Part shown: positions 1 through 24,740 of the stretch, piece by piece
Position numbering within the stretch: position 1 is the first letter of the stretch
How the letters are laid out: each line of letters begins with the position of its first letter
From: a virus
Reading direction: 5' to 3' (one strand)
Length of the DNA: 30,732 nt
Virus record (IMG/VR): IMGVR_UViG_3300042868_004620
Location: 1 to 30,732 of that record
The notes under the pieces: model-generated
Seen by the model: the letters and a program-made list of their open reading frames with translations, nothing else
What the model was told of the DNA's origin: nothing
Database searches by the model: none
Made by a program: the position numbers and the translations under genes

Positions 1-1502
1 CCGATCAGCCCGACAGACATAAGTGCATTAATGACCAGTTTGCCAAGTACGGCATCACCAATCATACTCGCATTGATGGTTTTGATGGTCGCGTAACGGA
101 TTATCGTAAGAAGGGAGATGTCGTCACTGGCATTTACTTTGACATTATGAAGTCGACCGATATTGCGTGTGCAATGGGTCACCTCACAATGATCAAGTAT
201 TGGTACGATACTTCCGAAACCGATGTTGCGTTATTCTTGGAAGATGATGTGAACCTTGAGAACTGCGAGAACTGGAGTTTCACGTGGTCAGAGTTCTTTG
301 CATCGCTTCCTTCGGACTGGAAGAATGTACAGTTGGCTCAGATTCGGTCGGATGAAATTAATGATATTGGCTTCCGTCCACGCATTGCTTCCGACTGGTG
401 CGTCACTGCGTATCTGATCAAACGATCATACGCCAAACAGCTGATTGATGATTACTTTATTGATGGTCGTTTCCGTCTCATTGTTCAGAATGACAAACAG
501 TGCCAGCCCATCGTAGAGAACCTCGTGTATTTCCCGGGAGAACCAAAGTCGTACAGTATCCCGCTCTTCACTGAAAAGAATACATTCTCGTCGACCTTCT
601 ATAGTAACGATACCAAGAAGGTCAAGGAATACAATGCTCTTTCCGAGAAGTACGTCACAACGTGGTGGCAACAGAATGGTCCCACAGCATCACTGGAATC
701 CATTATGAAGAAGCCAGTGCCGACTCCCATCATTCCTATGATCGGAACGGCAGTGGTCACAAATCCAAAATGGGTAAAACGCCTTGTTGAGAGTGTTGAT
801 TTTCCCGTCAAGGAGTTCTGCATCATCAATAACAACGGACGCGGAGAGATTGATGCCGAATTGGATGCGATTGCTGCAACTCCGCATCCCTACATTCGTA
901 AGATTAAAGTGGTTCATATGCCGGCAAATCTAGGTGTTCCGGGCTCATGGAACCTTATGATTAAATCCTATCTGAAGGCTCCGTACTGGATCATTGTAAA
1001 TGATGATGTTGCGTTTGGTCGTGGTTTCCTTGCGGAAATGTATGCTGCAACTATGCGTGATCCTTCGCTCGGTATCATTCACGGCTACGAAGGCGACCAT
1101 AATGTCGGTAGCTGGGACCTTTTCCTACTTCGAGATCATATTGTTGCCGATTACGGTCTCTTTGATGAGAATCTGTATCCCGCGTACAACGAGGACGCCG
1201 ATTACTTCCTACGGTTCATCCACAGTCCAATCCGCAAGATGATGAATCTTCAAAGCGATTACTATCACGGCGAGGGCAAGAAGAACGAATATCATGTTCA
1301 TGGAAGTCAGACGGGCAAGAGCGATCCGGTACTCAAAGAGAAATTGGACCGAGTGAATCTCATGAACATGGACTACATGACTCATAAATGGGGTAAGGAA
1401 TGGAGATGGTGTGCTCCAAGCAAACTTCCATTCGAGAACCGTCCGATTAGTTACACGTCCTACGATCTTCGCTTCATTCGTCAGAAGTATTTGGGCTTTT
1501 AA
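1..1502 (+). CDS. Two-domain glycosyltransferase (GT25-like + GT2-like), 5' partial
   Basis: The reading frame is open from base 3 to the TAA at 1500-1502, so the gene begins upstream of the window and the ATG at 147 is internal. The N-terminal half looks like glycosyltransferase family 25 (LPS/collagen galactosyltransferase type): an Arg/Asp-rich start, a 'CAMGHL' stretch and the acidic motif LFLEDDV with E-D-D at 240-248. The C-terminal half looks like a GT-A/GT2 domain: 'IIPMIGTAVV', a 'NLGVPGSWN' segment and a D-D motif (VNDDV) at 1002-1007, followed by 'NEDADYF'. Such enzymes transfer sugars from nucleotide-sugar donors to glycans or proteins. The gene lies directly upstream of a fibre block and is separated from it by a late promoter, so it belongs to the previous transcription unit. 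The acceptor is unknown. The GT25 and GT2 assignments rest on motif recognition; fold class is likely, sugar specificity is not predictable. Confidence 0.8.
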   Translation, partial: DQPDRHKCINDQFAKYGITNHTRIDGFDGRVTDYRKKGDVVTGIYFDIMKSTDIACAMGHLTMIKYWYDTSETDVALFLEDDVNLENCENWSFTWSEFFASLPSDWKNVQLAQIRSDEINDIGFRPRIASDWCVTAYLIKRSYAKQLIDDYFIDGRFRLIVQNDKQCQPIVENLVYFPGEPKSYSIPLFTEKNTFSSTFYSNDTKKVKEYNALSEKYVTTWWQQNGPTASLESIMKKPVPTPIIPMIGTAVVTNPKWVKRLVESVDFPVKEFCIINNNGRGEIDAELDAIAATPHPYIRKIKVVHMPANLGVPGSWNLMIKSYLKAPYWIIVNDDVAFGRGFLAEMYAATMRDPSLGIIHGYEGDHNVGSWDLFLLRDHIVADYGLFDENLYPAYNEDADYFLRFIHSPIRKMMNLQSDYYHGEGKKNEYHVHGSQTGKSDPVLKEKLDRVNLMNMDYMTHKWGKEWRWCAPSKLPFENRPISYTSYDLRFIRQKYLGF

Positions 1503-1576: not shown

Positions 1577-4500
1577 ATGTCTATAGATAAAAACTTTAAA
1601 GTCAAAAACGGCTTAGATGTAGCCGGTAACGCAACCGTAACTGGAACAATCGCAGTCCAAGGTATCCAAAGTACCCAGGGGCTCACTCGTTTCTTAGTAT
1701 CGGATACAGACGGGACATTCTATTATCAGAGTGGTGGAACACAGGGTGCTCAAGGCATTCAAGGTATTCAAGGCGTACAGGGTACGCAAGGAACACAGGG
1801 GCGCCAGGGTATTCAAGGAACTCAGGGCACCCAAGGCGAGCAAGGGATTCAAGGCATCCAGGGTATTCAAGGTGCACAGGGTCTTCAAGGTGCTCAGGGT
1901 CGCCAGGGCATTCAAGGGCATGAAGGAACTCAGGGTACTCAGGGAGCACAAGGTCTTCAAGGCGCACAAGGAACTCAGGGTATCCAGGGTATTCAAGGAA
2001 CTCAGGGAGCCCAAGGCGAACAGGGTATTCAGGGTATCCAGGGCATTCAGGGTATCCAAGGTATTTCCGGTGCTCCTGGTTCCGGTGGTACAATTGGACA
2101 TTGGGGTTCATTCTGGAGCACTCAGACTCAAGTTGCCGATGCCGCAAATACAGCATATCCGATCACCTTTAATCAATATGATGCCGCAAATTATGGAGTT
2201 ACCGTCTCCAATAATTCTCGGATCAATTTTCAATATATCGGTGTTTACAGTATTACATTTTCTGCTCAATTTGCAAATATTGATAATTCTGCATCAACGC
2301 ACGATGTAAAAGTCTGGTTACGCAAAAACGGTAATGGTAGCGCAGGAGATATTCCTGCAACCGAAAGCAGATTTACAATTCCGATAAAACACTCTGGTGT
2401 TCCAGGAGCCGTAATTGGTACCGTCAATTATGTTTTAACGGTTGAGCCGGGAGACTATTTTGAACTTATTTGGGCTCCAAGCGATGTTGATGTAGTCCTT
2501 CAATATTTTGCGGAAGGGACCTCTCCCGTCTCTCCATCGACTCCGAGTGTCATCTTTACTGCAACGCAGGTAATGTATACCCAACTTGGACCACAAGGCA
2601 CCCAAGGTATTCAGGGTGTTCAAGGTGTACAAGGCACACAAGGCACACAAGGAATTCAAGGTATCCAGGGCATTCAAGGCGTGCAGGGAACTCAAGGTAC
2701 CCAAGGAACTCAGGGTCTTCAAGGTACACAAGGTACCACGGGGATGTCGTTCATTGTTGCGCGTACATATGCCACAGTTGCCGCACTTATTGCCGATACA
2801 ACTCCGGCTGATATTGTTGCGGGTCAATTCGCACTCATCAATACGAATGATGTAGAGGATCCTGATAATTCAAAGATTTATCTCTGGGACGGTGACCAAT
2901 ACATTTTCATGAATGACCTTTCGGGTACCGCCGGTATCCAAGGTACCATGGGTGCTCAAGGAGTACAAGGTACGCAAGGTGTTCAAGGGACTCAAGGCGA
3001 ACAGGGTATTCAAGGTATCCAGGGCATTCAAGGTGTGCAGGGAACTCAAGGTGCTCAAGGAGAGCAAGGCATCCAAGGAATTCAGGGAATCCAAGGTGCT
3101 CAAGGGACCCAGGGTATCCAAGGTATTCAAGGTGAACAGGGTATCCAGGGTATTCAAGGTACTCAGGGAATTCAAGGTATCCAAGGCACACAAGGTATCC
3201 AAGGTATCCAAGGCGAGCAGGGCATTCAAGGAGAACAAGGTATCCAGGGTATCCAAGGAACACAGGGTACGCAAGGTATTCAAGGAGCCCAAGGCACATT
3301 TGGTACGCAAGGAGCCCAAGGCATCCAAGGTATTCAAGGAGAGCAGGGTGTCCAGGGTATCCAGGGCATTCAAGGTACTCAAGGAACTCAGGGCACTCAA
3401 GGTATCCAAGGAGAGCAGGGTATCCAGGGTATTCAAGGCGTACAGGGAACACAAGGTACTCAAGGTATTCAAGGAGAACAGGGTATCCAAGGTGAACAAG
3501 GAATCCAGGGCATTCAAGGCGTACAGGGAACACAAGGTGCTCAGGGTGAACAAGGAATCCAGGGAATTCAAGGTATTCAAGGAGTGCAGGGAACTCAAGG
3601 TACCCAAGGAACTCAGGGAACACAGGGAACCGAAGGTGCTCAAGGTATCCAAGGTACTCAAGGAACACAGGGTGAGCAGGGCATTCAAGGTATTCAAGGT
3701 ATCCAAGGAATTCAAGGAGCTCAAGGAACCCAGGGCGAACAGGGCATTCAAGGTATCCAAGGTCTCACAGGTATCCAAGGCGCTCAGGGTCTTCAAGGTA
3801 TTCAAGGATTCAAGGGTACAGAAATTTCTATCAGTGACACTGCACCAACTTCACCAGAGGTAAATGACCTTTGGTGGAATTCTGTTGGCGGTATGCTCAT
3901 GATTTACTACTTTGACGGTGACTCATCTCAATGGGTTTCCGCAACATCTGGTATTACTGGAGCCCAAGGTACTCAAGGCATTCAGGGTCTTACAGGTATC
4001 CAAGGTATTCAAGGTACCGCAGGCACCTTTGGCGGTGCAGCGTTCGATTACACATTTGATACATCTACTGTAAATTCCAATCCCGGAGCCGGAAAGCTAC
4101 GGCTCAATAATGTAAATCTCTCGCTTGCCGATACTCTTTACATTAACGAGTTGGATGATTTAAACAACTCGAACTATAATTTCTTACAGACAATTGATGA
4201 TTCGACATCTGTTATTAAGGGTCACTTCACAATTTCAATCAAAGGCAATCCAGATGTATTTGCGCTATTTGCAATCACGGGGTTTCATACTCATAACACG
4301 AATTACTTCGGCGTTCCTGCATCGTATCTTGCGGGTGCTACATCTTTTGCATCGAATGCCGATATTATAATTACCTTTGCACGTACCGGCGATGTCGGTG
4401 CACAGGGAACTCAAGGCATTCAAGGGATCCAAGGTATTACAGGTATTCAAGGAGCAATCGGAACTCAAGGCGCTCAGGGTCTTCAAGGTATCCAGGGCAT

Positions 4501-6392: not shown

Positions 6393-9300
6393 ATGGCCGT
6401 AATTAATTTTCCAACCAATCCGATCAACGGTTACATTCATACAGCTAACAACAGTAGCTGGATCTGGAATGGATCATACTGGAACGCCGTTAATGGCGGC
6501 GCGCAAGGTGCTCAGGGTCTCCAAGGAATTCAAGGAATCCAAGGCGTACAAGGAACACAGGGTCTCCAAGGCGAGCAAGGTATCCAGGGAATCCAAGGCA
6601 TTCAAGGTGTTCAAGGCACACAAGGTACTCAAGGTATCCAAGGTATCCAAGGTACACAGGGTATTCAAGGCTTGCAGGGCATTCAAGGTATTCAAGGAAC
6701 ACAAGGTATTCAAGGACATCAGGGTACACAAGGCGAGCAAGGTATCCAGGGTATTCAAGGCATTCAAGGTGTACAGGGAACACAAGGTACTCAGGGCGAG
6801 CAAGGTATCCAGGGTATTCAAGGAGTGCAAGGTACGCAGGGTGCTCAGGGTGAACAAGGAATTCAAGGCATTCAAGGCGTGCAGGGAACTCAGGGTGCTC
6901 AGGGTGCAGATGGTTACGTTGGATCCGATGGTGCTCAAGGCACGCAAGGCATCCAAGGTATCCAAGGTATCCAAGGAACTCAAGGTGTCCAAGGTATCCA
7001 GGGTATTCAAGGCATTCAAGGTGTACAAGGAACACAAGGTACTCAGGGAATTCAAGGAATCCAAGGCACACAAGGAACTCAGGGTATTCAAGGAATTCAA
7101 GGCGTCCAAGGAACTCAGGGAACACAAGGAGAACAAGGTATTCAAGGGACTCAGGGTACACAAGGTATTCAAGGTGTGCAAGGAACACAGGGAACTCAGG
7201 GCGAACAGGGAATTCAAGGAACTCAAGGTATCCAAGGTGTTCAAGGTACACAGGGCACTCAGGGTATTCAGGGCGTCCAAGGTACCCAAGGCGTTCAGGG
7301 TATCCAAGGAACTCAGGGCACTCAGGGTGAACAAGGAATCCAAGGGATCCAGGGAATTCAAGGTATTCAAGGAGCACAAGGTATCCAGGGAATTCAAGGC
7401 GTGCAAGGTACACAAGGAACTCAGGGTATTCAAGGTCCTGCTGGTACCTTTGGCGGTGCCGCATTCGACTATACCTTTGATACAACTACTACAAATTCAA
7501 ATCCTGGCACCGGCGTTCTTCGTCTCAATACTGCCAACCTTTCTCTTTCTTCGGCATTGTACATTAATGATACTGATGACCTCAGTGTTTCGATCTACAA
7601 CTTCTTACAGACCATTGACGATTCTACATCAACAATCAAAGGTCACTTTACAATCTCGGAAAAGGCAAATGCAAACAACTTTGCAATCTTTGCGATTACC
7701 GGAAATCATACGCATGGTACGAATTATTTCCAGGTACCCGTCTCCTATCTTTCTGGTGCGACATCATTTACGGATGATTTAGACATCATTATTACCTTTG
7801 CTCGTTCGGGTGACATTGGTGCAACCGGAGCTCAAGGTACTCAAGGAACACAAGGCGAGCAAGGTATCCAGGGCATTCAAGGAATTCAAGGCACACAGGG
7901 AACGCAAGGAACTCAGGGTATTCAAGGAGTACAAGGTACACAAGGAGCTCAGGGTGAACAGGGTATCCAAGGCATTCAAGGAATTCAAGGAACTCAGGGT
8001 ACGCAAGGAACACAAGGTGAACAGGGTATTCAAGGAACGCAGGGCACTCAAGGTATTCAAGGTGTACAGGGAACACAAGGAACTCAGGGTATTCAAGGTA
8101 TCCAAGGAACTCAGGGCACTCAAGGTATTCAAGGGATTCAAGGCACTCAGGGCACCCAGGGTGAGCAAGGTATTCAAGGTATCCAGGGTATTCAAGGAGT
8201 ACAGGGAACACAGGGCACTCAAGGTATTCAGGGCATCCAAGGTATCCAAGGAACTCAGGGAACTCAAGGACAACAGGGAATCCAAGGTACTCAGGGTGAG
8301 CAAGGAATTCAAGGTGTTCAAGGCATTCAAGGAACGCAGGGCACACAAGGTATCCAAGGTATCACTGGTTCTCAAGGTATTACCGGAACTCAAGGTACGC
8401 AAGGTATCCAAGGAACTCAGGGCACTCAGGGTGAACAAGGAATTCAAGGTATCCAGGGTATTCAAGGAGTACAGGGAACACAAGGTACACAGGGGACGCA
8501 AGGAATCCAGGGCATCCAAGGTATTCAAGGTGTGCAGGGAACACAGGGCGCTCAGGGTGAACAAGGTATCCAGGGGACTCAAGGCACTCAGGGTACCCAA
8601 GGTATTCAAGGTGAGCAAGGCATTCAGGGTATTCAGGGCATTCAAGGCGTTCAAGGGATCCAAGGCATTCAAGGTATCCAAGGCGTACAGGGAACTCAAG
8701 GTACCCAAGGGTTAAAGGGAACAGAAATTGCTTCATCGGCAACTCCACCCGAGTCTCCTTCCGTTGATGACCTCTGGTGGAATTCCGATCTAGGTATTTT
8801 GATGATCTATTATTATGATGGTGATTCGTACCAATGGGTCACGACATCATCGGGTATTGTTGGACCTCAAGGTGCGCAAGGCACAATGGGTACTCAAGGT
8901 ATCAATGGAACTCAGGGTGCATCAGGTTTCAATGGAGCACAAGGTTCTCAAGGTCTCCAAGGTATTCAAGGTGTCCAGGGTATTTCTGGTGCTCAAGGTC
9001 TGAATGGGGCTCAAGGTGCTCAAGGGCTTCAAGGTGAGCAGGGCATCCAAGGTATTACCGGATCGCAAGGAGTTCAGGGTGCTCAAGGTACCCAAGGTTT
9101 ACAAGGCGAGCAAGGCATTCAAGGTATCCAGGGTATTCAAGGTACTCAAGGAACACAAGGCATTCAAGGTACTCAAGGAACCCAAGGTATTCAAGGAACA
9201 CAAGGCGAACAAGGTATCCAGGGTATACAAGGTATTCAAGGCGTACAAGGTATTGCCGGTTATCAAGGAATTAATGGTGCTCAGGGGACACAGGGTATTC

Positions 9301-12300
9301 AAGGTATCCAAGGCGTACAAGGAACGCAGGGCACACAGGGTATTACAGGTTCGCAGGGTACTGCCGGAACATTCGGTGGTGCAGCATTCGATTACACCTT
9401 TGATACATCCACGACAAATGCGGATCCGGGTACCGGAAAGCTCCGTCTCAGTAATGCCGATCTAAGCCTGGCAAGTGCTCTTTACATTAATGATACTGAT
9501 GACCTGAGTGTTTCAATTTACAATTTCTTACAGACCATTGATGACTCAACCTCAACAATCAAGGGTCACTTTACGATCACTCAGAAGAATGACACAAATA
9601 ATTTTGCGTTGTTCTCAATTACCGGAGCTCACTCTCACGGTTCCAATTATTTTAATGTTCCGGTAGCTTACCTCAGCGGTGCAACATCATTTACCAATGC
9701 TCTTGACATTATTATTACTTTTGCTCGTACGGGTGACGTAGGCGCAACTGGTGCACAAGGCACACAAGGTACACAGGGTATACAGGGTATCCAAGGGATT
9801 ACTGGTATTCAAGGAACTCAAGGTGTACAAGGAACTCAAGGTCGTCAGGGTATCCAAGGGACTCAGGGCACTCAGGGCCAACAAGGAACCCAAGGTATCC
9901 AGGGAATTCAAGGCGCTCAAGGAACACAGGGTATTCAAGGTATCCAAGGAACACAGGGTATACAAGGCGTACAAGGCGTGCAAGGCGCTCAAGGAACACA
10001 GGGTATTCAAGGTATCCAAGGAACACAGGGTATACAAGGCGTGCAAGGTACGCAAGGTATCCAGGGTGTACAGGGTATCCAAGGTATCCAAGGTATTCGA
10101 GGAACTCAGGGCACTCAGGGCACTCAGGGCGTTCAAGGTATCACTGGCGTGAATGCAAATGTTCTCACAAGCGACACTGCTCCGGTATCTCCAAATGCCG
10201 GTGACCTATGGTGGGACTCAAGTGTTGGCATGATGCGCATTTACTATTATGACGGTACATCATCGCAATGGGTCGATGTTAATCCAGGCTCGATTCAAGG
10301 TATCCAGGGTATTCAAGGCGTTCAAGGAACTCAGGGTGCTCAAGGAATACAGGGTATCCAAGGGGCGCAGGGAACTCAGGGTACAGTAGGGTCTCAAGGA
10401 ACAGTTGGTTCTCAGGGCGCACAAGGTATTCAAGGTATTCAAGGTATTAGCGGTGCATCAATTCTTGGAACTGCAAATACTTGGACAAATACAAATGCGT
10501 TTACATCGTTAAGTAGCACGGGAGGAGCCAACTTTGCAACGAGCAGCGGCAACGTCGGTATTGGGACGACGGGGCCATCGTATAAAACAGATATTTATGG
10601 TACGTTTGCTCAAAGAAATGCGCCTGCTGATGTTTTGCGGATTCAAGCTGATACAACTACTGTTAATGGCACTGGTGGTGTAGATGCCGGATTTGGCCCA
10701 TCATTGTTATTTTACGGCAATATTACGGGAGGTGGATTACGAAACAATGGCAGAATTAATGCTGTAAATGAAGGTGGCAATGTGTCTGGAATGGCTTTTT
10801 GGACACAATCAACCGCTGATATTATTTTGGAGAGGATGAGAATTTCTGCAGGCGGCAACGTCGGCATTGGTACAACGAGTCCATCCGCTAAACTGCACGT
10901 TGAAGATGGGAATATCTTCATCGGTAATTTTTCGGCTCATCCGAGTCCATATGGTTCCTCTTCAACTTCAAGTGGGCACGTTCTGAGGTTTGACAACACC
11001 TATAATGGCCGAAAGATCATTCTTCACGATAATGGGTTCGCGCCAGATTGGTTTGGCGGTTTTGGAGTTTCTCTCTCGGATATGGACTATTTCAGTGGGG
11101 CTAATCATCGGTTTTATGTCGGCTCAACTGCGGGGGCTGACGGTACTGAAGCCTTTACGATCCGATCAAGCGGCAACGTCGGTATTGGTACGACGAGTCC
11201 TGCATATAAATTAGATGTTGCTGGCAATATTAAAACTTCAGGACTCTTATTAGAAAAATTTGTAAGTTTTACACCTACGACAGTTGGTTGGTATAGAATT
11301 GTAAATGTAGGTCCTAGTGGGGGCGGTCTGGTACGCATTAGCGCTAACTATGATAACGCTGTTACTGATGTTGAATTTCAATTTAATATAGGTGGATATG
11401 GTACTGATGGCTCTGTACAGCAAACACGATACGCAAGCTACAACGGTGGAGTAGTTGACAAAGCAAGAATAAGTAGCGACGGAAGTGGTAGCTGCTATCT
11501 AGATATTTACGTATTCACTGCAACATCGCCAGCAGCAATAAGCGTTTATTTTTATGGCCCACAGATGCCAAGCCCTGTAGCGTCTCCTGTAGTCGGAGCT
11601 ACTGCGGGTTCAACAAATGTAAGAACATTAACCCTTGGGCATGGATTTAGAACTACTAACGGCTCAAACTTTGCTGAAGTCTCAGGCAACGTCGGAATTG
11701 GAACGTCGAGTCCTGATCAAAAACTGATGGTTAACATCAGTACTACATCAGGTGTTAATGGAACTGTTCTGAATTCCTATCCTATTGCTAAATTCATAAA
11801 CACCGATTCAGGCAATGCTCAGAGAGGACTTGAAATTGGAGCTAATACAGGAAGCGTCTCCTCGCCTATCTATCTGAAAGTATCAGGCACCAGCGCAAGA
11901 TTTGCTATTGTCAATGAAAACAATGTTGAAAACTTTACAATTCTTAGTGCTGGCAACGTCGGCATTGGGACGGCAAGTCCTTCGGGAAGGCTTCATGTTA
12001 CCGACGCCACCGATAGAACAGAAATTACCTCGCAGTTTCAAATTACTGGTGCAGGATATACTGGCTACCATTTTCTTGATGCGACAGCCTATTACATAGG
12101 TCAAAATTCCAATTCAAGAGAGTTGCGGGTATATTCTGGAAGCTCGACCGCTGTCGGTGTTCGTCTTACCGCTGGGAATAATGCTTGGACAACCTATTCT
12201 GATGAACGCTTGAAAGACATCATTGAACCAATTGAAAATGCAATTGAAAAGGTTTCTACCCTTAGAACTGTCATTGGTAAATATAAGACCGACGATATTA

Positions 12301-12491
12301 ATAAACGCCGGGTTTTTATGTTTGCTCAAGATGTTAATGCGGTTTTACCAGAGGCGGTTACAGAAGATTCTGATGGAATGTTAGGCATGGCGTTCGATCA
12401 TATAGTTCCGCTTTTAACAGCCGCAATCAAAGAACAACAAGTTCTGATCAGCAATCTGGCCGCACGCCTTGCCGCACTCGAATCTAAATAA
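6393..12491 (+). CDS. Giant (2032 aa) collagen-like tail fibre with S74 chaperone
   Basis: The largest gene of the window. The N-terminus ([15 protein letters not shown], then WIWNGSYWN) is an attachment motif also found at the starts of the genes at 12503 and 14836. Approximate domains: collagen 36-349; [10 protein letters not shown] module 353-475; collagen 478-774; DLWW module 778-816; collagen 823-990; second [10 protein letters not shown] module 994-1116; collagen 1118-1253; second DLWW module 1256-1294; collagen 1301-1353; then an '[14 protein letters not shown]' linker and a shaft with five [10 protein letters not shown]-type repeats (1386-1860); S74 domain from Ser1936 (SDERLK) to the end, with a coiled-coil-like tail ending in LESK. 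About 960 residues are Gly-X-Gln triplets, so the molecule should be very long and thin. No Shine-Dalgarno sequence is visible. It is likely a receptor-binding fibre or whisker; its receptor is unknown. Confidence 0.88.
7449..7817 (+). repeat. [10 protein letters not shown] module, copy 2 of 3
   Basis: The same 123-aa module as at 4028-4396, with no length change. It starts [13 protein letters not shown] and ends FARSGDI, embedded between two collagen tracts of the 2032-aa fibre. Confidence 0.85.
8724..8840 (+). repeat. DLWW fibre module, copy 2 of 3
   Basis: 39-aa module with DDLWWNS and [11 protein letters not shown], preceded by KGT as in copy 1 (3821-3937). The shared flank suggests the module moved together with the end of the neighbouring collagen tract. 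Confidence 0.8.
9372..9740 (+). repeat. [10 protein letters not shown] module, copy 3 of 3
   Basis: Third 369-nt copy, second within the 2032-aa fibre. It is preceded by 'TAGTFGG' as in copy 1 and ends FARTGDV. The second and third copies share the run [19 protein letters not shown], so they are closer to each other than to copy 1. Confidence 0.85.
9786..9913 (+). repeat. 128-nt block shared with 19670-19797
   Basis: Collagen-coding DNA that matches 19670-19797 at 127 of 128 positions (C9889 versus T19773). Neighbouring collagen DNA uses freely varying synonymous codons, so this identity points to recent recombination or gene conversion between two fibre genes. Confidence 0.85.
10158..10274 (+). 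repeat. DLWW fibre module, copy 3 of 3
   Basis: 39-aa module with [14 protein letters not shown] and [11 protein letters not shown], following the fourth collagen tract of the 2032-aa fibre. It has the same length as the copies at 3821 and 8724. Confidence 0.8.
10548..11980 (+). repeat. Five dispersed GNVGIGT(T/S/A)(S/G)P repeats
   Basis: Five near-identical DNA blocks of about 29 nt (core GGCAACGTCGG.ATTGG.AC) start at 10548, 10854, 11172, 11685 and 11952. Each encodes GNVGIGT followed by a Pro and introduces a new shaft segment. Their DNA conservation exceeds that of the segments between them, so they are probable recombination joints between fibre cassettes. The same block occurs three times in the next gene. 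Confidence 0.85.
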
Positions 12492-12497
12492 TAAATA
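12490..12497 (+). promoter_or_regulatory. Late promoter-like AATAAATA overlapping a stop codon
   Basis: Seven of eight bases match the T4 late core, overlapping the stop codon of the 2032-aa fibre gene. On T4 spacing the transcript would begin at 12503, the A of the next ATG, giving a leaderless mRNA. An alternative reading is that the sequence is only an AT-rich stop-start junction. Confidence 0.45.
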
Positions 12498-12502
12498 CTC
12501 TT

Positions 12503-14350
12503 ATGGCTATTGATTTTCCAACATCACCTTCTCCCGGACAGCAAGTCACATCTGGTTCAAGAACATGGACGTGGAGCGGTACCTATTGGGCCAATAATAC
12601 CATCACTGGTGTCCAGGGCACACAAGGTATCCAAGGTACTCAGGGAACACAAGGCGCCCAAGGTATCCAGGGACTTCTAGGCACTCAGGGTTCGCAGGGT
12701 CTCCAAGGTATCCAAGGAATTCAAGGTATCACCGGAGCTCAGGGTATTCAAGGAATTCAAGGTACTCAGGGAACACAGGGTCTCCAAGGTATCATGGGTG
12801 CTCAGGGTGCTCAAGGTACACAGGGAACACAAGGCGCACAAGGTATTCAAGGGACTCAGGGAACACAGGGGCTTCAAGGTATTCAGGGTATTAGCGGTGC
12901 ATCCATTCTTGGAACTGCGAATACTTGGACGAATACAAATGCGTTCACGTCAGTAACGGCGACACTTCAGTCACAGTTTAGCGGTTCAGCTAATAGCGCT
13001 ATATTTACTGGCTCCGATCCAGACCAAGGTTTCCAGATGATTTCTACGGCTACAGGAGGAAGAACTTATGCAGTAAAAGTTGCGGGTTCAGCTTCTGGAA
13101 ACATTCCTGGTGCGGGATTATATTTTTACGATCAAACTGGTACAGGTATTGTGATGGCTTTTGATACCACAAAAAGGGTAAACATCTACAACGGTCTTGC
13201 CGTGACTGGGGCGTTGTCGAGCACGGGAATGTTTAGCTTAACGGGCGGTTCGCTTGGGCAAATCGCCATTTTTAATTCCACAAACGCCAACGGTATTTAC
13301 CATACCTACCAGACAAATGGAACGGCTATAGGAGACATTGGCTCAAGCAACCAAACCATGAGCGGTTCTTCCGCTGATTTTGGTATTACGTCTCGTAGCG
13401 GCAAGTTGATTTTTGGCACAGGATCGTCCATTCGTGCGGTCATCGACAGCAGCGGGAACGTCGGTATTGGTACGACGAGTCCTTTGGCAAAACTGCAAGT
13501 AAGTGGAGGCAGATCATATCTCTTTAGTGGAGATAATTATAGTGTAGGCCTTGCTCAAACGGCAGCACAGGCTAATTATATGTACTTGGGTACTGCATCT
13601 GATGGTACATTCCACATCAGCGAAAGTGGTGGAACTGCTAGGTTCACACTACAACAAGCAGGCAACGTCGGCATTGGGACTGCGAGTCCTGCTTATAAAT
13701 TACATCTCAGTGGAGGTTCTGATACTCGTATTCAAATAGACGCAACCTCTACTCAAGGATTTTATTTTACAAAGGCAGGAACTAATAACGGAACATTTCG
13801 CGTAGATACTGACGGTAATTTTGAGTTTTACACCAAGACGGTTTCCCAAGCAATGGTTCTAACAGCTGCTGGCAACGTCGGCATTGGTACGACGAGTCCT
13901 GGCTCTTCAACCAAACTATTTGTTAACGGTCAGACGACACTAAAACGTCTACAAAAACAAGTGTACAATTTCTACACCACCAGTGGTTCATCATATGTAC
14001 ACTTCAAAACTACATTAAAATTAAGCGGCAGTGGTGCGCATGTTGGGATGTGGTCATGGCGATTTTATGGTTATTCATATGGCACAGCAAGAATAATTGA
14101 TTCTTATTTTGGTCTGCATGCAGATGGTTCTGGAAACATTTACAGTCCAGCATATCAAGATCAAGGCGAATTCGCATTTTGTACAAATATGTACAAATCA
14201 TCAGATAACTTCTTGGTTATTGTTGGTCTTATCGACAATACATATTACTTTGGTCTTGATGTCGACATTCATCATACTATGGCTTATTCATATACGGAAT
14301 TAGGAATAAGTACACATTCACAATCTGCAAACACTTCAGGAGTCTATTAA
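12503..14350 (+). CDS. Collagen-like tail fibre lacking an S74 domain
   Basis: A 615-aa fibre. The N-terminus (FPTSPSPGQQV, then WTWSGTYWAN) is the attachment motif shared with the genes at 6393 and 14836. Collagen-like Gly-X-Gln triplets span residues about 36-132, followed by the '[14 protein letters not shown]' linker also present in the 2032-aa fibre, and a shaft with three GNVGIGT repeats. The last roughly 140 residues (from KLFVNGQTT) are a different globular, aromatic-rich tip with no SDERLK motif and no coiled coil, so S74-type maturation is missing. The AT-rich tip coding region and the small gene that follows look like one acquired cassette. That small protein might take over the chaperone role, but this is inference. 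There is no Shine-Dalgarno sequence; the start sits 5 nt after a late promoter-like element. Confidence 0.85.
   Translation: MAIDFPTSPSPGQQVTSGSRTWTWSGTYWANNTITGVQGTQGIQGTQGTQGAQGIQGLLGTQGSQGLQGIQGIQGITGAQGIQGIQGTQGTQGLQGIMGAQGAQGTQGTQGAQGIQGTQGTQGLQGIQGISGASILGTANTWTNTNAFTSVTATLQSQFSGSANSAIFTGSDPDQGFQMISTATGGRTYAVKVAGSASGNIPGAGLYFYDQTGTGIVMAFDTTKRVNIYNGLAVTGALSSTGMFSLTGGSLGQIAIFNSTNANGIYHTYQTNGTAIGDIGSSNQTMSGSSADFGITSRSGKLIFGTGSSIRAVIDSSGNVGIGTTSPLAKLQVSGGRSYLFSGDNYSVGLAQTAAQANYMYLGTASDGTFHISESGGTARFTLQQAGNVGIGTASPAYKLHLSGGSDTRIQIDATSTQGFYFTKAGTNNGTFRVDTDGNFEFYTKTVSQAMVLTAAGNVGIGTTSPGSSTKLFVNGQTTLKRLQKQVYNFYTTSGSSYVHFKTTLKLSGSGAHVGMWSWRFYGYSYGTARIIDSYFGLHADGSGNIYSPAYQDQGEFAFCTNMYKSSDNFLVIVGLIDNTYYFGLDVDIHHTMAYSYTELGISTHSQSANTSGVY
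13454..13899 (+). repeat. Three further GNVGIGT repeats
   Basis: Blocks at 13454-13482, 13661-13689 and 13871-13899, nearly identical to those in the preceding fibre gene (10548-11980). The copies at 11172 and 13454 share the run TCGGTATTGGTACGACGAGT. They separate shaft segments of the 615-aa fibre. Confidence 0.85.
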
Positions 14351-14351
14351 T

Positions 14352-14648
14352 ATGCCTAATGAACTTGAAACACAATTAAAATTAAAATTAGATCAATTAA
14401 ATCAATATTCTATTCGAAGAAAATTAGAGTACGGTATTCTTTCTTCGCAATTAGATTTGTTATATAATGATATTCGCGATGGTTGTTTCGGCGAAAATGC
14501 AAAAAAAGGTTCTTGGTATAAAAAAATTACTGAAATTAAATCCAATTACCCAAAACCAGATATTGGTGCATTAAAGGTTGAGGTTGAAGAATTGATCAAA
14601 CAGGTTGACATCGCAAAGATGTATAAACCAGAAGAAACCCAAGAATAG
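14352..14648 (+). CDS. Small conserved phage protein next to a fibre gene (possible fibre chaperone)
   Basis: A 98-aa protein starting 1 nt after the upstream stop, with a good AGGAG site at 14338-14342 lying inside the end of the fibre gene. The pattern 'RRKLEYGILSSQLDLLYNDI', then 'GSWYKKITEIKSNYPKP', resembles a widespread small phage protein encoded next to tail fibre genes, whose function I do not know. A charged C-terminal helix follows (about residues 74-90). The DNA is markedly more AT-rich than the neighbouring genes, as is the end of the preceding fibre gene, which suggests both arrived together. A role as assembly chaperone for the S74-less fibre is a guess from position. Confidence 0.7.
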   Translation: MPNELETQLKLKLDQLNQYSIRRKLEYGILSSQLDLLYNDIRDGCFGENAKKGSWYKKITEIKSNYPKPDIGALKVEVEELIKQVDIAKMYKPEETQE

Positions 14649-14677: not shown

Positions 14678-14817
14678 ATGACAAACATAACTTGGAACAT
14701 CTCGCAACTTGACTGCCACCCACTAAACACATTCTTGACACGGACTGGACGGATAGCGGTGGTCGCCCAATCGTTGAGCCGCTCAAGCCAGCAGAACCCG
14801 CTCTTGAATCTAAGTAA
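14678..14817 (+). pseudogene. Decayed small virion-type gene
   Basis: Within the 187-nt gap before the 798-aa fibre gene. An ATG at 14678 opens 'MTNITWNISQLD', which resembles the starts of the 121- and 124-aa paralogs at 17237 and 18828 (ITYTWKID, ITYTWELTSL). About 60 nt later a sensible C-terminus appears in another frame: 'DTDWTDSGGRPIVEPLK', then PAEPALESK, ending at the TAA 14815-14817. The second frame has a TGA at 14710, so no single frame covers both. I read this as the ends of one or two genes joined by an internal deletion and frameshift. An upstream CTGGAGA at 14663-14669 could have been its ribosome binding site. Confidence 0.5.
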
Positions 14818-14823
14818 TAAATA
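14816..14823 (+). promoter_or_regulatory. Late promoter-like AATAAATA
   Basis: Seven of eight bases match the T4 late core, overlapping the last stop of the decayed gene. The predicted start near 14829 gives a 7-nt leader before the ATG at 14836, which has no Shine-Dalgarno sequence. Confidence 0.5.
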
Positions 14824-14835
14824 GAACATATAACA

Positions 14836-17232
14836 ATGGCCCTTTCATTTCCAAATTCACCTACACTTAATGACATCCACAGCCACAGTGGTAAGAGCTG
14901 GCAATGGAATGGTGCCTTCTGGGTCTCGATTAATGCTGGTGTTCAAGGACCGCAGGGTATCCAAGGGACACAAGGTACACAGGGTCTTCAAGGTGCACAA
15001 GGCACTCAGGGACAACAGGGTATTCAGGGCACGCAAGGAACACAAGGAACTCAGGGTACCCAAGGGCTTCAAGGTGCGCAAGGAACTCAGGGACAACAGG
15101 GTATCCAGGGAATTCAAGGAACCTTAGGAGCTCAAGGTGCAGTAGGTGCACAAGGTACTCAGGGTATCCAGGGTATTCAGGGTATCCAAGGAACTCAGGG
15201 AACCTTAGGAGCTCAAGGTGCAGTAGGAGCACAAGGTACTCAGGGCATTCAGGGTCGTCAGGGTATTCAGGGAACCTTAGGAGCTCAAGGCACTGTCGGC
15301 ACTACCGGTGCTCAGGGCGCACAAGGAACTTCGGGCGCAACAATTTTAGGCAATACAAATACTTGGACAGCTACTAATACATTTAATAATACAATTACCG
15401 GTTCTATCAGCGGGTCGTCAGGTTCTATCAGCGGCTACGGCAACCCCACAACGGCAGCGACCGCCAACACGATTGTTTACCGCGACGGCAGCGGACACAT
15501 CACCGGAAATTACTTTTTTGGTAACTACATCAACACGGGCGACGACGTTAGTGCGGGATCGATCACCTACTTGATGGGTAAGTTCGGCGATAATTATCAC
15601 CGCTCGGCTACGGCGGCAAAGGTCGCCACGTTCTTAAGCGGTCAGTCGATGAACATTAGTGGCACCTCGACCAACATCACCGCGTACACGATCAACCAGA
15701 GTCTCGGTACCGGTAACGGCCCCACCTTCGATCAGGTTTACTGCAACGGCTGGTTTCGCAACGTCGGCAATCAGGGGTTGTACAACGGCACCCACGGAAA
15801 TCATTTCTACGCGACCAGCAGTTCAATGTGGAACATCGCGGGGAACTCAGGCGGCGAAGTCGGTCTAATGATGAGAACGGGTGGGCATGAAGGAACGGTT
15901 CGCGGCTACCTTTACGGAGATAACAGCAGCAATTTTGGTCTGTTAGGCTCTGCTGGCTCTTGGAGATTGCAGATAGCCGGTGGCGATTACCTGAATTACT
16001 ATGGTAGTTCAATTCGCAGTTACCTCTACTACGACCTTAACGACACGGCTTACTACGTTGATCCAAACAGTACTACTAGATTAAACTTATTAAACGTAGC
16101 CCAAAATCTACACGTCAGCGTCAATGGCTCTACTGGTGGCGGCATTATTCTTGCTGATGATGGCGATATTGTAGATTTAAATGACGCTTATTGTGCAATG
16201 CGATTTTCTTCTGGCGTTAGGATTCATAGCGGAAATAGATCTGGTGGCGCGGTCATTACTCTCGGTTCGGATGGCAGAGTAACGGCAAATACCGATGCTC
16301 GCGCTCCAATTTTCTACGACAACAATGATACTGGATTTTACTGTGATCCAAATGGCACAAGTCGTTTAAACGGTCTTACCGTAGGATACAGTCAAGGATC
16401 ATCATTGATTAGTATGTTCGATTCTGATGAAAGTACTCGTTATATTCATAATAACAGTAGTACAATTGGGTTTTTGGGTTCTGCTGGTAATTGGAGATTA
16501 AGAGTAGCCGACGATGGTAACATCCTTATGGGAACATACCAAGACTGGCTGAGCAATCAAATCAGATCAAACATTTTTTATAAACACGACGATACATCGT
16601 ATTATTGTAATCCAAATTCATCTAGCGTTTTAAGAACAATAACAAATAGAGGTTGGCTTTATATTGATGAGAACTACGGGCACTCTGTAGTTGGTGTTTA
16701 TAATTCGACTATTTTCCAAGGCGTATTCGCAATGGGTGATTCGTATAAACTCACTGCGGGCGGCGGAATAAATAACCTTTACGGCATAGCTTGGTCGCAC
16801 CCGAATGCTGGCGGTATCGCTGGTAATTTAGATTCGCACGGATTGATTGTCGCGATTAACGGCGGCTTCGGTTCGTGTATGGCTTATTCAATCAAGGCTT
16901 CAAGCAACGTAACAGCATATTCAGATGAACGTCTAAAGAAAGATTGGGCTGATTTACCAAAAGATTATGTTGAGCAGTTAGCCAAAGTAAAAGTTGGTAC
17001 CTATACCCGTATTGATGGTGAGAAACTTCGCCAGGTCGGTGTCTCTGCCCAATCACTTCGCCCACTACTTCCAGAAGCAGTCATTGAAGCGACAGATGAT
17101 TTCAAAACTCTTTCGGTTGCGTATGGTAATGCTGCGATGGCATCCGCAGTGGAACTTGCAAAGGAAGTTGTATCATTAAAGGAACAACTTGCCGCAGTAT
17201 TGGAACGCCTCAACAAACTGGAGAATAAATAA
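14836..17232 (+). CDS. Collagen-like tail fibre with S74 chaperone
   Basis: A 798-aa fibre. The N-terminal attachment motif is FPNSPTLNDIHSHSG, then WQWNGAFWV, shared with the genes at 6393 and 12503. Collagen-like triplets span residues about 35-168. A shaft follows with 'TIVYRDGSGHI', 'NYINTGDDVS' and 'NITAYTINQS' modules; the last also occurs in the 1594-aa fibre near 5690. Three copies of a D.NDT.YY.DPN motif appear (NDTAYYVDPN, NDTGFYCDPN, DDTSYYCNPN), each after a divergent 'FLGSAG(S/N)WRL' type segment or similar. The C-terminal S74 domain runs from Ser696 (SDERLKK) and ends in a coiled-coil-like tail (LERLNKLENK). The DNA from about 15420 to 15900 is visibly GC-richer than its flanks, suggesting the shaft is mosaic. 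Host receptor unknown. Confidence 0.87.
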   Translation: MALSFPNSPTLNDIHSHSGKSWQWNGAFWVSINAGVQGPQGIQGTQGTQGLQGAQGTQGQQGIQGTQGTQGTQGTQGLQGAQGTQGQQGIQGIQGTLGAQGAVGAQGTQGIQGIQGIQGTQGTLGAQGAVGAQGTQGIQGRQGIQGTLGAQGTVGTTGAQGAQGTSGATILGNTNTWTATNTFNNTITGSISGSSGSISGYGNPTTAATANTIVYRDGSGHITGNYFFGNYINTGDDVSAGSITYLMGKFGDNYHRSATAAKVATFLSGQSMNISGTSTNITAYTINQSLGTGNGPTFDQVYCNGWFRNVGNQGLYNGTHGNHFYATSSSMWNIAGNSGGEVGLMMRTGGHEGTVRGYLYGDNSSNFGLLGSAGSWRLQIAGGDYLNYYGSSIRSYLYYDLNDTAYYVDPNSTTRLNLLNVAQNLHVSVNGSTGGGIILADDGDIVDLNDAYCAMRFSSGVRIHSGNRSGGAVITLGSDGRVTANTDARAPIFYDNNDTGFYCDPNGTSRLNGLTVGYSQGSSLISMFDSDESTRYIHNNSSTIGFLGSAGNWRLRVADDGNILMGTYQDWLSNQIRSNIFYKHDDTSYYCNPNSSSVLRTITNRGWLYIDENYGHSVVGVYNSTIFQGVFAMGDSYKLTAGGGINNLYGIAWSHPNAGGIAGNLDSHGLIVAINGGFGSCMAYSIKASSNVTAYSDERLKKDWADLPKDYVEQLAKVKVGTYTRIDGEKLRQVGVSAQSLRPLLPEAVIEATDDFKTLSVAYGNAAMASAVELAKEVVSLKEQLAAVLERLNKLENK
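17224..17231 (+). promoter_or_regulatory. Late promoter-like AATAAATA overlapping a stop codon
   Basis: Seven of eight bases match the T4 late core. It overlaps the C-terminal codons and stop of the S74 fibre. T4 spacing predicts a start at 17237, exactly the A of the next ATG, so the mRNA would be leaderless. Confidence 0.45.
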
Positions 17233-17605: not shown

Positions 17606-18412
17606 ATGCCAACACCAACAGGCACAATTTCAATGAGTGACGTCAATACGGAGCTAGGTCGGGCGTCTAATACGAACATTTCATTAAATGATACCATTGT
17701 ACGTACACTTGCGGGAGTTGCAAGCGGTACAATTTCCATGGACAATCTTCGTGGTAAGAGTAATACCCAAACATATACATTTGCTTATACCGGAGGAAAC
17801 CAAACCTTCACTGTTCCTTCGGGAAAAACCTCAATGGTCGTCAAACTTTGGGGAGCCGGAGGCGGAGCAGGATTCCTATCTTATGGCGGCGGTGGCGGCT
17901 TTGCTCAATCAACAGTGAGTGTTTCTGGCGGACAGACTTATACAATTGCCGTGGGCGGAGGCGGTGGAGGCTGGAATACAGGATCGGCAAACGGTTTTCC
18001 AGATGCTTATGGAACCTCCAATATCGGAACGGCGGGTGGCGGTGGATCAACTTCGGTAACAGGAAACGGAGTCGCAATATATGCTCCGGGCGGCGGTGGC
18101 GGCGGTGACACAAACGGTCACGGAGCAAATGCGGGTGGCGCGGGCGGTGGCTTATTCTTTGACGGCACGGCAAGAGGAGACGGAACAACTAATGGCGGAG
18201 AACAAGGATTCAGATTTGCGGGAGGTGGTTCGGGTGGACAATTTAGGTTTACATCGGGAAGTTCAAACAGTTCGGCAACCGGAACACATAAAACTTATGG
18301 TCCTCCGGGCAATTCAAGTGACGCTAATTATCCCGGCTATCCTCGCGGTTACGGCGGAGACTACAACGGACAAGATGCACCGGGTGGTGGATGGGCAGTT
18401 ATTATCTGTTAA
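17606..18412 (+). CDS. Gly-rich gp38-like tail adhesin
   Basis: A 268-aa protein. The N-terminal part 'ISMSDVNTELGRASN', followed by 'ISLNDTIVRTLAGV' and LRGKS, is a common attachment segment of phage tail proteins. From residue about 55 comes a Gly-rich domain, 'TFTVPSGKTSMVVKLWGAGG', with repeated runs of four to six glycines separated by short variable loops up to the C-terminus (GGGWAVIIC). This resembles T-even gp38-type adhesins, in which packed polyglycine II helices present variable loops that bind the receptor. The gene starts 3 nt after the upstream stop, so translational coupling is likely. It is a strong candidate for a receptor-binding tip protein; the partner fibre is not known. 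Confidence 0.75.
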   Translation: MPTPTGTISMSDVNTELGRASNTNISLNDTIVRTLAGVASGTISMDNLRGKSNTQTYTFAYTGGNQTFTVPSGKTSMVVKLWGAGGGAGFLSYGGGGGFAQSTVSVSGGQTYTIAVGGGGGGWNTGSANGFPDAYGTSNIGTAGGGGSTSVTGNGVAIYAPGGGGGGDTNGHGANAGGAGGGLFFDGTARGDGTTNGGEQGFRFAGGGSGGQFRFTSGSSNSSATGTHKTYGPPGNSSDANYPGYPRGYGGDYNGQDAPGGGWAVIIC

Positions 18413-18414
18413 TT

Positions 18415-18801
18415 ATGCAAAAATACTCTAAGATAAATTCAGAAAATCAAGTTACAGAGGTCGTCGATGTTGAAGACAACATTTCTAATCCTCTTGAATA
18501 CTTGAACAATAACCACGGTGAGGGAAATTGGCTAAAAACAGATTACTATACGTCTGCAAATAAGCACTACGATACTAATTTTGCTTTAGATGGTAAAGCA
18601 CCATTCAGAAAAAATCATGGAGCAGTAGGTTACACTTATGATTCACAAAGAGATGCTTTCATTCCTAAAAAGCCTTTTGATTCATGGGTGCTCGACGAAG
18701 AAACCTGCAATTGGTTTCCACCCATACCCTACCCGCAAGATGGAAAGAAATATAACTGGAATGAATCTACTATAAATTGGACGGAAATACAATCTACTTA
18801 A
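18415..18801 (+). CDS. Conserved small phage protein (GYTYD family)
   Basis: A 128-aa protein. The ATG at 18415, 2 nt after the upstream stop, is preferred to the in-frame ATG at 18391, which lies inside the adhesin gene. The signature is 'GYTYDSQRDAFIPKKPF', then 'SWVLDEETCNWFPPIPYP' and 'DGKKYNWNESTINWTE', a pattern I recognise from small proteins encoded near structural genes of marine T4-like phages. Many aromatic residues and no secretion signal; function unknown. Its place right behind the Gly-rich adhesin suggests a fibre- or baseplate-related role. Confidence 0.7.
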   Translation: MQKYSKINSENQVTEVVDVEDNISNPLEYLNNNHGEGNWLKTDYYTSANKHYDTNFALDGKAPFRKNHGAVGYTYDSQRDAFIPKKPFDSWVLDEETCNWFPPIPYPQDGKKYNWNESTINWTEIQST

Positions 18802-23564: not shown

Positions 23565-24740
23565 ATGGCAAAGCAAACTATTTTAACAGGAACAGTCGCC
23601 AACGATAGAACGGGCGACACAATTCGTGCAGCCTTTACAAAGGCCAATGCCAATTTTACCGAACTGTATAACCTAGGCGCGGTGCAAGGAGTACAAGGTG
23701 CGCAAGGCACTCAGGGAATTCAAGGGCGTCAGGGTATCACTGGAGCTCAAGGTATCACTGGAGCTCAGGGAATTCAAGGTACCGCAGGATTCGTGGGATC
23801 TAACGGAGCTCAAGGTACACAAGGTGTACAAGGACTTCAAGGTACACAAGGTGCACAAGGTGTCCAGGGTATTACTGGTGCACAAGGAACACGTGCAACG
23901 GAAGATAGATTAATTAATGGCAGTTACGAAGTTATACTTAATGCTACGGGTGAACTCACATTTCCCGAAGGCGCTAATATAACTGATACGGCTACTACAA
24001 TTGTAATTACACCACCCGGAGCAGCTGCCGGACAAAGTTTAGTAATTCGTCCTACATCATCGACATGGTCGGTCACTTCGAGTGGTCACATTGTATATGG
24101 TAGCCCAATTACAATCTCGGTCAATCAGCTTTCGCAAGGAAATTATTTTGGAACAGTCAATTATGAAATTACTGGTACCGGTGTAACCCAACAATCGTTG
24201 GGTCGGGCTCTCACTGGTAATGTGGTTTTTGACGGAACTACAGGACCTATTGCCGAAACGGTCACCTGGACCATACCCGCCAATAGTGACATTACCGAAT
24301 TCACTTTTACTCTAACTACTGTTAATGGTACTCGTTCGACAGATTATCAAACTGAAAATGATCCGGCATTATACTATAATTTTGAATATAATGCAATGCC
24401 TACGGGAACCTTTGTTACCGTAACTAACAATGGTATTAATAGTTCGGAACACAGTCACGTACATTTAATCTCGGGCAATTCCGTAACAACCGATATCTAT
24501 CTTGGTGACGATGACCAGTTTGTTAAGATCGAAAAGAACGGCGGCGATGTTGTCATTGGTACCAACACAAATACTAAAAATTGGAGATTTGACACTGATG
24601 GAGATTTAACATTACCTGCTGCCGGCGACATTTTAGACAGCACTGGTGAATCACAATTCATTAGCATATCCGGATTAAAAACATTGGTTGCAGATAGTAC
24701 AGATTTTGCCGACTTTAAAACAAGAATTGCCGCTCTTTAA
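23565..24740 (+). CDS. Collagen-bearing structural protein inserted between 14 and 15
   Basis: A 391-aa protein starting 1 nt after the stop of gene 14. The N-terminus '[20 protein letters not shown]', then NFTELYNL, is a common phage structural start. A short collagen tract follows (about residues 43-107, including GRQ and [10 protein letters not shown]). A beta-rich region of about 190 residues comes next, then '[20 protein letters not shown]' with His296, His298 and His300, and '[14 protein letters not shown]', known from cyanophage structural proteins. The C-terminal helix is '[13 protein letters not shown]'. The alternate histidines could bind metal in a trimeric needle. There is no S74 domain. 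Its place in the neck operon hints at a whisker- or neck-fibre-like role, comparable to T4 fibritin, but that is inference. Confidence 0.72.

Follow-up and report, generated by a model that had tools for sequence, protein, structure and literature searches.

Our data give good support to an exchange at the distal end of a fiber gene in an environmental virus of bacteria, represented by the 30,732-base IMG/VR virus record analyzed here as a whole (the window). In the reading that we regard as probable, a C-terminal tip domain (T), the 98-aa gene directly behind it (P2), and the start of a DUF7936 gene were joined into a fiber gene that ended in a different tip (R), and P2 serves as a folding partner of the tip; the exchange at the slot itself is well supported. 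Other phages are known to exchange fiber tips along with a matching chaperone, and what is new here is the partner family P2, breakpoints located inside P2, and a legible scar. The first-pass annotation of this DNA had viewed the tip and its small partner as an acquired cassette that moved in one step, and the scar, the linkage of T with P2, and natural exchanges in other loci all agree with that view.

The right part of the window carries homologs of T4-like neck, sheath, terminase, and tube proteins, and the left part is a series of long collagen-repeat fiber genes that starts after a glycosyltransferase gene (Table 1). Fiber genes often stand in tandem in this cluster, which also hosts an AT-rich small gene of phrog_7759 with unknown function (18391-18801, GC 0.355); an extra collagen-type fiber gene (23565-24740) lies between the gp14 and tail sheath stabilizer homologs. 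The cluster resembles the host recognition cluster of cyano- and pelagimyophages, a hypervariable fiber island located by the neck gene gp14 and often accompanied by glycosyltransferases, in that it is near gp14 and has a glycosyltransferase at its edge (PMC7029224); the portions of that report available to us describe a whole island, without tip-partner exchange or breakpoints. As the first-pass annotation had stated, the 615-aa fiber has no Peptidase_S74 (S74) domain and its tip is unlike the end of its S74-bearing neighbor, Pfam finding only collagen in it and S74 in both neighbors. The last GNVGIGT joint begins at 13871, where it had been placed, and the joints are indeed common to two fibers: one DNA pattern accounts for eight near-identical copies (10548-13899) in two fiber genes, and these are possible sites of shaft recombination. 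The fiber and P2 ORFs are separated by 1 bp.

Table 1. Features of the exchanged slot and its surroundings in the window
Feature	Position	Strand	Remarks
Glycosyltransferase gene	147-1502		Edge of fiber cluster
S74-bearing fiber before the 615-aa fiber	6393-12491		Pfam Peptidase_S74, E 3.4e-8
615-aa fiber, full ORF	12503-14350	+	Pfam: collagen, no Peptidase_S74
615-aa fiber: anchor, collagen-repeat, and GNVGIGT-shaft part	12503..13954	+	No S74
Last GNVGIGT joint upstream of the tip	13871..13899	+
T tip domain of the 615-aa fiber	13955..14347	+	C-terminal single-domain beta-sandwich; HMM family, structure model
P2, 98-aa partner gene	14352..14648	+	Variable N-terminus, conserved helical C-terminal core
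Cut-off DUF7936 gene	14678..14722	+	First 15 codons, MTNITWNISQLDCHP
Relic of R-type tip 3' end	14725..14814	+	KHILDTDWTDSGGRPIVEPLKPAEPALESK, then stops
Next S74-bearing fiber	14836..17232	+	Syntenic right flank of slot; Pfam S74, E 3.0e-8

A two-part scar lies between P2 and the next fiber. Its first part encodes MTNITWNISQLDCHP, and the intact DUF7936 genes of two other loci (L222 and L224) begin MTTITWNISQLDCHP. The second part, a relic in a frame other than that of the DUF7936 start, reads KHILDTDWTDSGGRPIVEPLKPAEPALESK before it stops, and it matches the C-terminal end of the R tip of a relative (L023) with 77% identity over 22 aa (E 3e-8); elsewhere in the window, no place does better than E 0.36. 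Comparison of the relic with five R-tip ends gave scores of 99 to 83, and the maxima for shuffled sequences were 41 to 52. When the relic alone was searched against 50,697 annotated phage records, a single match was obtained (Cyanophage S-TIM54, E 0.03), and it sits at the end of the stretch of that phage that matches the R tip. R is another S74-less tip type, unlike T, and it is present in annotated phages, including P-SSM2. These data support the conclusion that the scar consists of a DUF7936 start (15 codons) followed by the 3' end of an R tip, the remnant of the displaced tip.

We also compared the state of this slot in relatives, which were gathered by a scan with the neck protein gp14 (168 matches, 80 loci kept); four contigs with gp14 100% (L011, L012, L013, and L014) end short of the slot. 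In L023 (gp14 90%), positions 1-437 are 85.6% identical to window positions 12522-12949, and the fiber has an R tip, lacks P2, and is followed directly by the ortholog of the next window fiber. In L031 (gp14 67%), an R-tip fiber directly precedes a fiber in which 112 of the last 120 aa match the next window fiber. Overall, R tips occur in four relatives, two of which (L023 and L031) have them in exactly this slot, and the other two (L024 and L025, gp14 76%) have them before a different fiber. The sister contig (gp14 89%), which comprises loci L022 and L091, carries in the slot a fiber with the same anchor and an S74 end (E 4.4e-11), and in L091 this S74 fiber is followed by three stand-alone T genes (145, 148, and 147 aa), then by P2 (84 aa), and then by the next fiber. 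Orthologs of the next fiber start at L022:1562, L023:2776, and about L031:2463. This comparison reveals three distal states on one anchor: an R tip; an S74 end with separate T genes and P2; and a fused T with P2 and an R relic. By parsimony from the two relatives with R in the slot, the R tip appears to be the older state.

Since the relic is an R-tip end and relatives carry an R tip in the slot, the displaced tip would be of the R type. Replacement of an S74 end, as had been proposed in the first-pass annotation, is unsupported, given that the leftover codons are R-type and the R tip is still in the slot of L023 and L031. An S74 end does occur in the slot in L091, beside three separate T genes and P2, and the presence of this arrangement in a relative so similar in gp14 would suit a fusion in place, in which loss of an S74 end by deletion linked the shaft to a stand-alone T gene that, like P2, was there beforehand. 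We consider such a fusion improbable: the T domains of the window and L091 are only 18-24% identical and their P2 proteins 24%, and a simple deletion explains neither the R-tip relic nor the DUF7936 start. Another reading takes the relic as the remainder of a separate downstream R-tip fiber gene, with the T fiber and P2 as an additional gene and the tip unchanged; it is in keeping with the tandem fiber genes of the cluster and with the location of the relic 3' of P2, outside the fiber. We give this reading little credence, as the window fiber shares its anchor and collagen DNA (85.6%) with the R-tip fiber of L023, one R-tip fiber directly precedes the next fiber in that relative, and a DUF7936 start ahead of an R-tip end requires a joining event regardless.

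For the exchange that we favor, the slot would be a fiber gene with a conserved anchor and collagen part and a replaceable distal part, and the incoming stretch (T tip, P2, and initial DUF7936 codons) would have been joined into a fiber gene that ended in an R tip. The right joint would be non-homologous, leaving the last 30 R-tip codons 3' of P2; with P2 missing from the recipient slot, no P2 homology would have been available for the joint, and a scar would have been left. Where both partners carry P2, its conserved 3' half would be the right-hand crossover site. At the left, the exchange had been thought to start right after the joint at 13871-13899, but similarity to L023 at the nucleotide level extends no further than 12949, and so the exchanged stretch need not start after that joint. 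Protein searches of annotated phages and IMG/VR, including one with the first T profile, found no donor of the T-P2 block, and when the DNA of the whole region was compared with annotated phages, only collagen-repeat parts matched. Arrays in which two or three stand-alone T genes precede a P2, often with overlapping stop and start codons, recur in L091 (4493-6082), L094 (84-1676), L179-L184, L188-L191, and L194-L198, and such arrays are possibly a reservoir of tips.

The tip and the 98-aa gene had been described as AT-richer than their surroundings, and our measurements confirm this. GC content declines from 0.461 in the shaft to 0.407 in the linker, 0.361 in the T domain, and 0.300 in P2, and the block formed by T and P2 (13955-14648) is the window minimum at 0.333; among stretches of that size that do not touch it, the lowest has 0.386. 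The dip sets in gradually on the left and ends sharply on the right, GC being 0.515 again in 14722-14818. The difference in GC between P2 and the shaft (-0.159) is the lowest among 82 P2 genes measured alike (next, -0.154). Since the T genes and P2 of L091 also have a GC of 0.35-0.39, vs 0.468 in the S74 fiber of that contig, AT-richness is partly a trait of the T/P2 kind. Synonymous codon usage (tip z 0.32, P2 z 2.41) is not clearly foreign, because other genes deviate equally or more (up to 4.53). Hence, of the compositional break anticipated by the first-pass annotation, the GC part was found, with a gradual left edge, and the codon-usage part was not clear; codon usage was dropped as proof of foreign origin.

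The T family was defined in this analysis as a domain that is either C-terminal in a fiber or encoded by a separate gene of ~145-155 aa. Its HMM matches the window fiber with E 1.3e-25, this fiber having been in the seed alignment, unlike all other T fibers from loci chosen by P2, and the domain ends the ORF. Among the matches listed, the T domain is at the ORF end in all but two (L203 and L210). T-like domains are also found in three Bacteroidota MAG contigs (L225, L226, and L227). The window tip alone, used as a protein query, has no relative in IMG/VR and none in annotated phages, and with a first T profile the sister contig alone was confirmed. Modeling from 11 sequences predicts a beta-sandwich (pLDDT 81.1) whose best PDB neighbors are 6c72, the C-terminal domain of an Acinetobacter phage tailspike (Z 9.1, rmsd 2.9, 112 residues), and T4 gp9 (1qex, Z 8.8), scores that are only slightly over the usual best score of unmatched models. 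Searched against PDB sequences, the T profile returned a single weak match (5bxg, an uncharacterized beta-sandwich protein, E 0.0011).

A search for T and P2 as a linked pair gave a divided answer. The loci chosen by T contain 50 terminal T genes in 31 clusters, and the next gene is P2 in 14 and another follower in 16, with 1 at a contig end; the share is 11 of 28 when L175, L176, and L177, which are contigs first found via P2 (as L105, L146, and L104), are left aside. Followers in the absence of P2 include a PF16778 tail assembly chaperone, a short unnamed protein, and DUF7936. The short protein has a GYxFxY motif recognized by eye and matches no Pfam model at the cut-off (L204 2352-2546, L206 5309-5560, L214 5312-5491, L215 1057-1215, and L217 5341-5490). 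Viewed from P2 (80 loci kept of 347 confirmed), 83 of 88 copies have an upstream ORF, the other five having been dropped for want of one, and these 83 genes form 20 clusters by their last 130 residues. T is upstream only in L102, L104, L105, and L146, and the 83 genes include 11 with PEGA, 4 with a Gly-rich domain, and none with S74 (last 330 residues, E 0.01). A few genes that are not tip-like also occur upstream of P2, namely an oxygenase (L119) and a second P2 copy (L125). Among annotated phages, P2 matches 43 records, mostly cyanophages, and all nine cyanophage loci opened have a gene whose end lies 1-34 bp ahead of P2; six of these nine upstream genes have Gly_rich_2 and none has S74. T and P2 therefore recur together, as had been expected, and P2 also follows many other tip families. 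The term "dedicated" in the first-pass annotation is too narrow for this distribution, and we dropped the idea that P2 is dedicated to T tips.

Natural tip exchanges were found in four pairs of loci in which the shaft is near 90-98% identical, the tip and P2 N-terminus are near 50%, and identity recovers inside P2. In L104/L105, the shaft is near-identical, the tip brings a fall in identity from 0.97 to 0.48 between neighboring 60-base bins, and identity recovers within P2 (3908-4195), reaching 0.80 at 3980 and 1.0 from 4100 and remaining high beyond. The other pairs (L103/L130, L121/L132, and L096/L126), which have a jelly-roll, non-T tip type and may share history and so perhaps are not independent, display ~0.35-0.8 in the tip and the N-terminal part of P2, recovery in the last third of P2, and 0.9-1.0 downstream. 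Both tips and P2 N-termini change fast, and on the left side of the exchanged stretch the jelly-roll pairs have shoulders of 0.6-0.85, so these patterns could be attributed to fast divergence of both parts under diversifying selection; the drop between neighboring bins in L104/L105, followed by full identity within P2, makes this attribution improbable.

The correspondence between tip and P2 N-terminus was also assessed across loci. In pairs with alike shafts, the median identity over the first 60 bases of P2 was 0.46 (0.40-0.90) in 33 tip-exchanged pairs, which include some near-duplicates and pairs of L114-L116 with L125 that differ in downstream DNA, and 0.93 (0.48-1.0) in 103 tip-conserved pairs, several of which go down to 0.48. 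Among the 78 loci that remained of 122 after duplicates were removed, P2 N-termini were alike in 135 of 216 same-tip pairs vs 42 of 2,787 different-tip pairs, and at matched C-terminal similarity in 69 of 103 vs 10 of 620. Over all pairs, tip similarity and P2 N-terminal similarity showed no rank correlation (0.004; partial, -0.022; up to 0.092 in permutations), since the majority of pairs are related neither in tip nor in P2 N-terminus, and the link is visible only in class-level counts. The P2 N-terminus of the window was below the similarity cut-off against all 12 loci listed as nearest in tip.

Alignment of P2 revealed a variable N-terminal half and a conserved helical C-terminal half. As a direct protein query, P2 retrieved no relative from IMG/VR, and its relatives were recovered with a profile built from sister-phage copies, the full alignment being too weakly conserved for scanning. 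The C-terminal core matches phrog_1787 (E 1.5e-13), 8886 (3.2e-12), 9114 (1e-10), and 2687 (2.1e-7); PHROG 1787 and its kin are listed in PHROGs without a function, and our literature search, partial in its coverage, found no paper on these families or on P2, T, or DUF7936. The structure model of P2, for which seven alignment rows were left out, is predicted to be all helical (pLDDT 89.4, pTM 0.55); Foldseek returned no PDB chain for it, and the best BFVD hit had E 0.71. Window P2 has no Pfam match up to E 1, Caudo_TAP (PF02413) and Phage_tail_APC (PF16778) included, and three other P2 proteins have none up to E 0.5 (L002, for example) apart from an irrelevant one in L104. A profile comparison by hhalign with three PF16778 proteins gave a probability of 0.3 percent. 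In sum, the Pfam, profile, PDB, and BFVD comparisons brought up no sequence or fold match of P2 to a known chaperone.

This leaves room for P2 to be linked to tips as something other than a chaperone, such as a virion accessory, an adhesin cap, or a regulator. We think that such a role is rather doubtful, in view of the position of P2, its combination of a variable, tip-matched N-terminus with a conserved helical C-terminus, and the presence of the PF16778 phage tail assembly chaperone directly after T in L199 and L210 and, with one gene in between, in L202. In the role that we favor, P2 would act on S74-less tips as an intermolecular folding partner, either an assembly chaperone or a transient cap. 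Contact with the matching tip would be made by the variable N-terminal half of P2; the conserved helical C-terminal half would have a generic role and, by analogy with Pam3 gp25, would be the trimerizing part. From its position, tip-matched N-terminus, and conserved helical C-terminus, together with the Pam3 case, we infer that P2 may act as such a chaperone or cap.

In Pam3, a freshwater myocyanophage, gp24 is the fiber and gp25 its chaperone, which binds the tip through a non-conserved N-terminal domain and trimerizes through a conserved helical one (PMC9608196). As described there, gp25 is likewise the product of a small gene with a non-conserved N-terminus and a conserved helical C-terminus, and the Gly-rich tip type of gp24 is that found before P2 in six of nine cyanophage loci; unlike the 98-aa P2 with its helical model, gp25 has 162 aa and a beta-sandwich N-terminus (PMC9608196). 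There is no detectable sequence or fold match between the two. Tfa of Mu, lambda-type Caudo_TAP (PF02413), T4 gp38, and PF16778 occupy the slot just 3' of the tip, as does P2 in the window, in the nine cyanophage loci opened, and in 14 of 31 T clusters, and Tfa-type proteins, like P2, are exchanged along with tips. P2, however, matches none of the sequence models of Tfa, gp38, or PF16778. Membership of P2 in the Tfa family was therefore rejected, and P2 is filed as working like Tfa. Like the intramolecular chaperone Peptidase_S74, P2 is proposed to aid the folding of a trimeric tip; unlike S74, which is fused to the fiber, P2 is a separate gene, and S74 is absent from the genes preceding it in the loci chosen by P2. 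In Alteromonas phages A5, V22, and P24, a fiber and its cognate chaperone are common to distant phages (PMC10579305). Compared with those modules, as far as that source describes them, P2 and T belong to other protein families, the breakpoints lie inside the partner gene, and one scar is present (PMC10579305).

More broadly, proteins of the PHROG 1787 type may constitute an unrecognized, widespread family of tip-matched intermolecular chaperones or caps that serve S74-less tips in T4-like aquatic phages, whose head would be swapped with the tip and whose tail codons would be the crossover, in one recombination event; we see the prospects of this generalization as evenly balanced. Paired tip exchange suggests how phages may change their attachment target, and the scar in the window represents a replacement dated by its context, with the old tip still legible. 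If P2 is a true partner, many "hypothetical" genes of cyanophages and T4-like aquatic phages would gain a testable role, annotation could match tips with their partners, and breakpoints inside P2 would explain how a tip can be replaced without loss of its partner.
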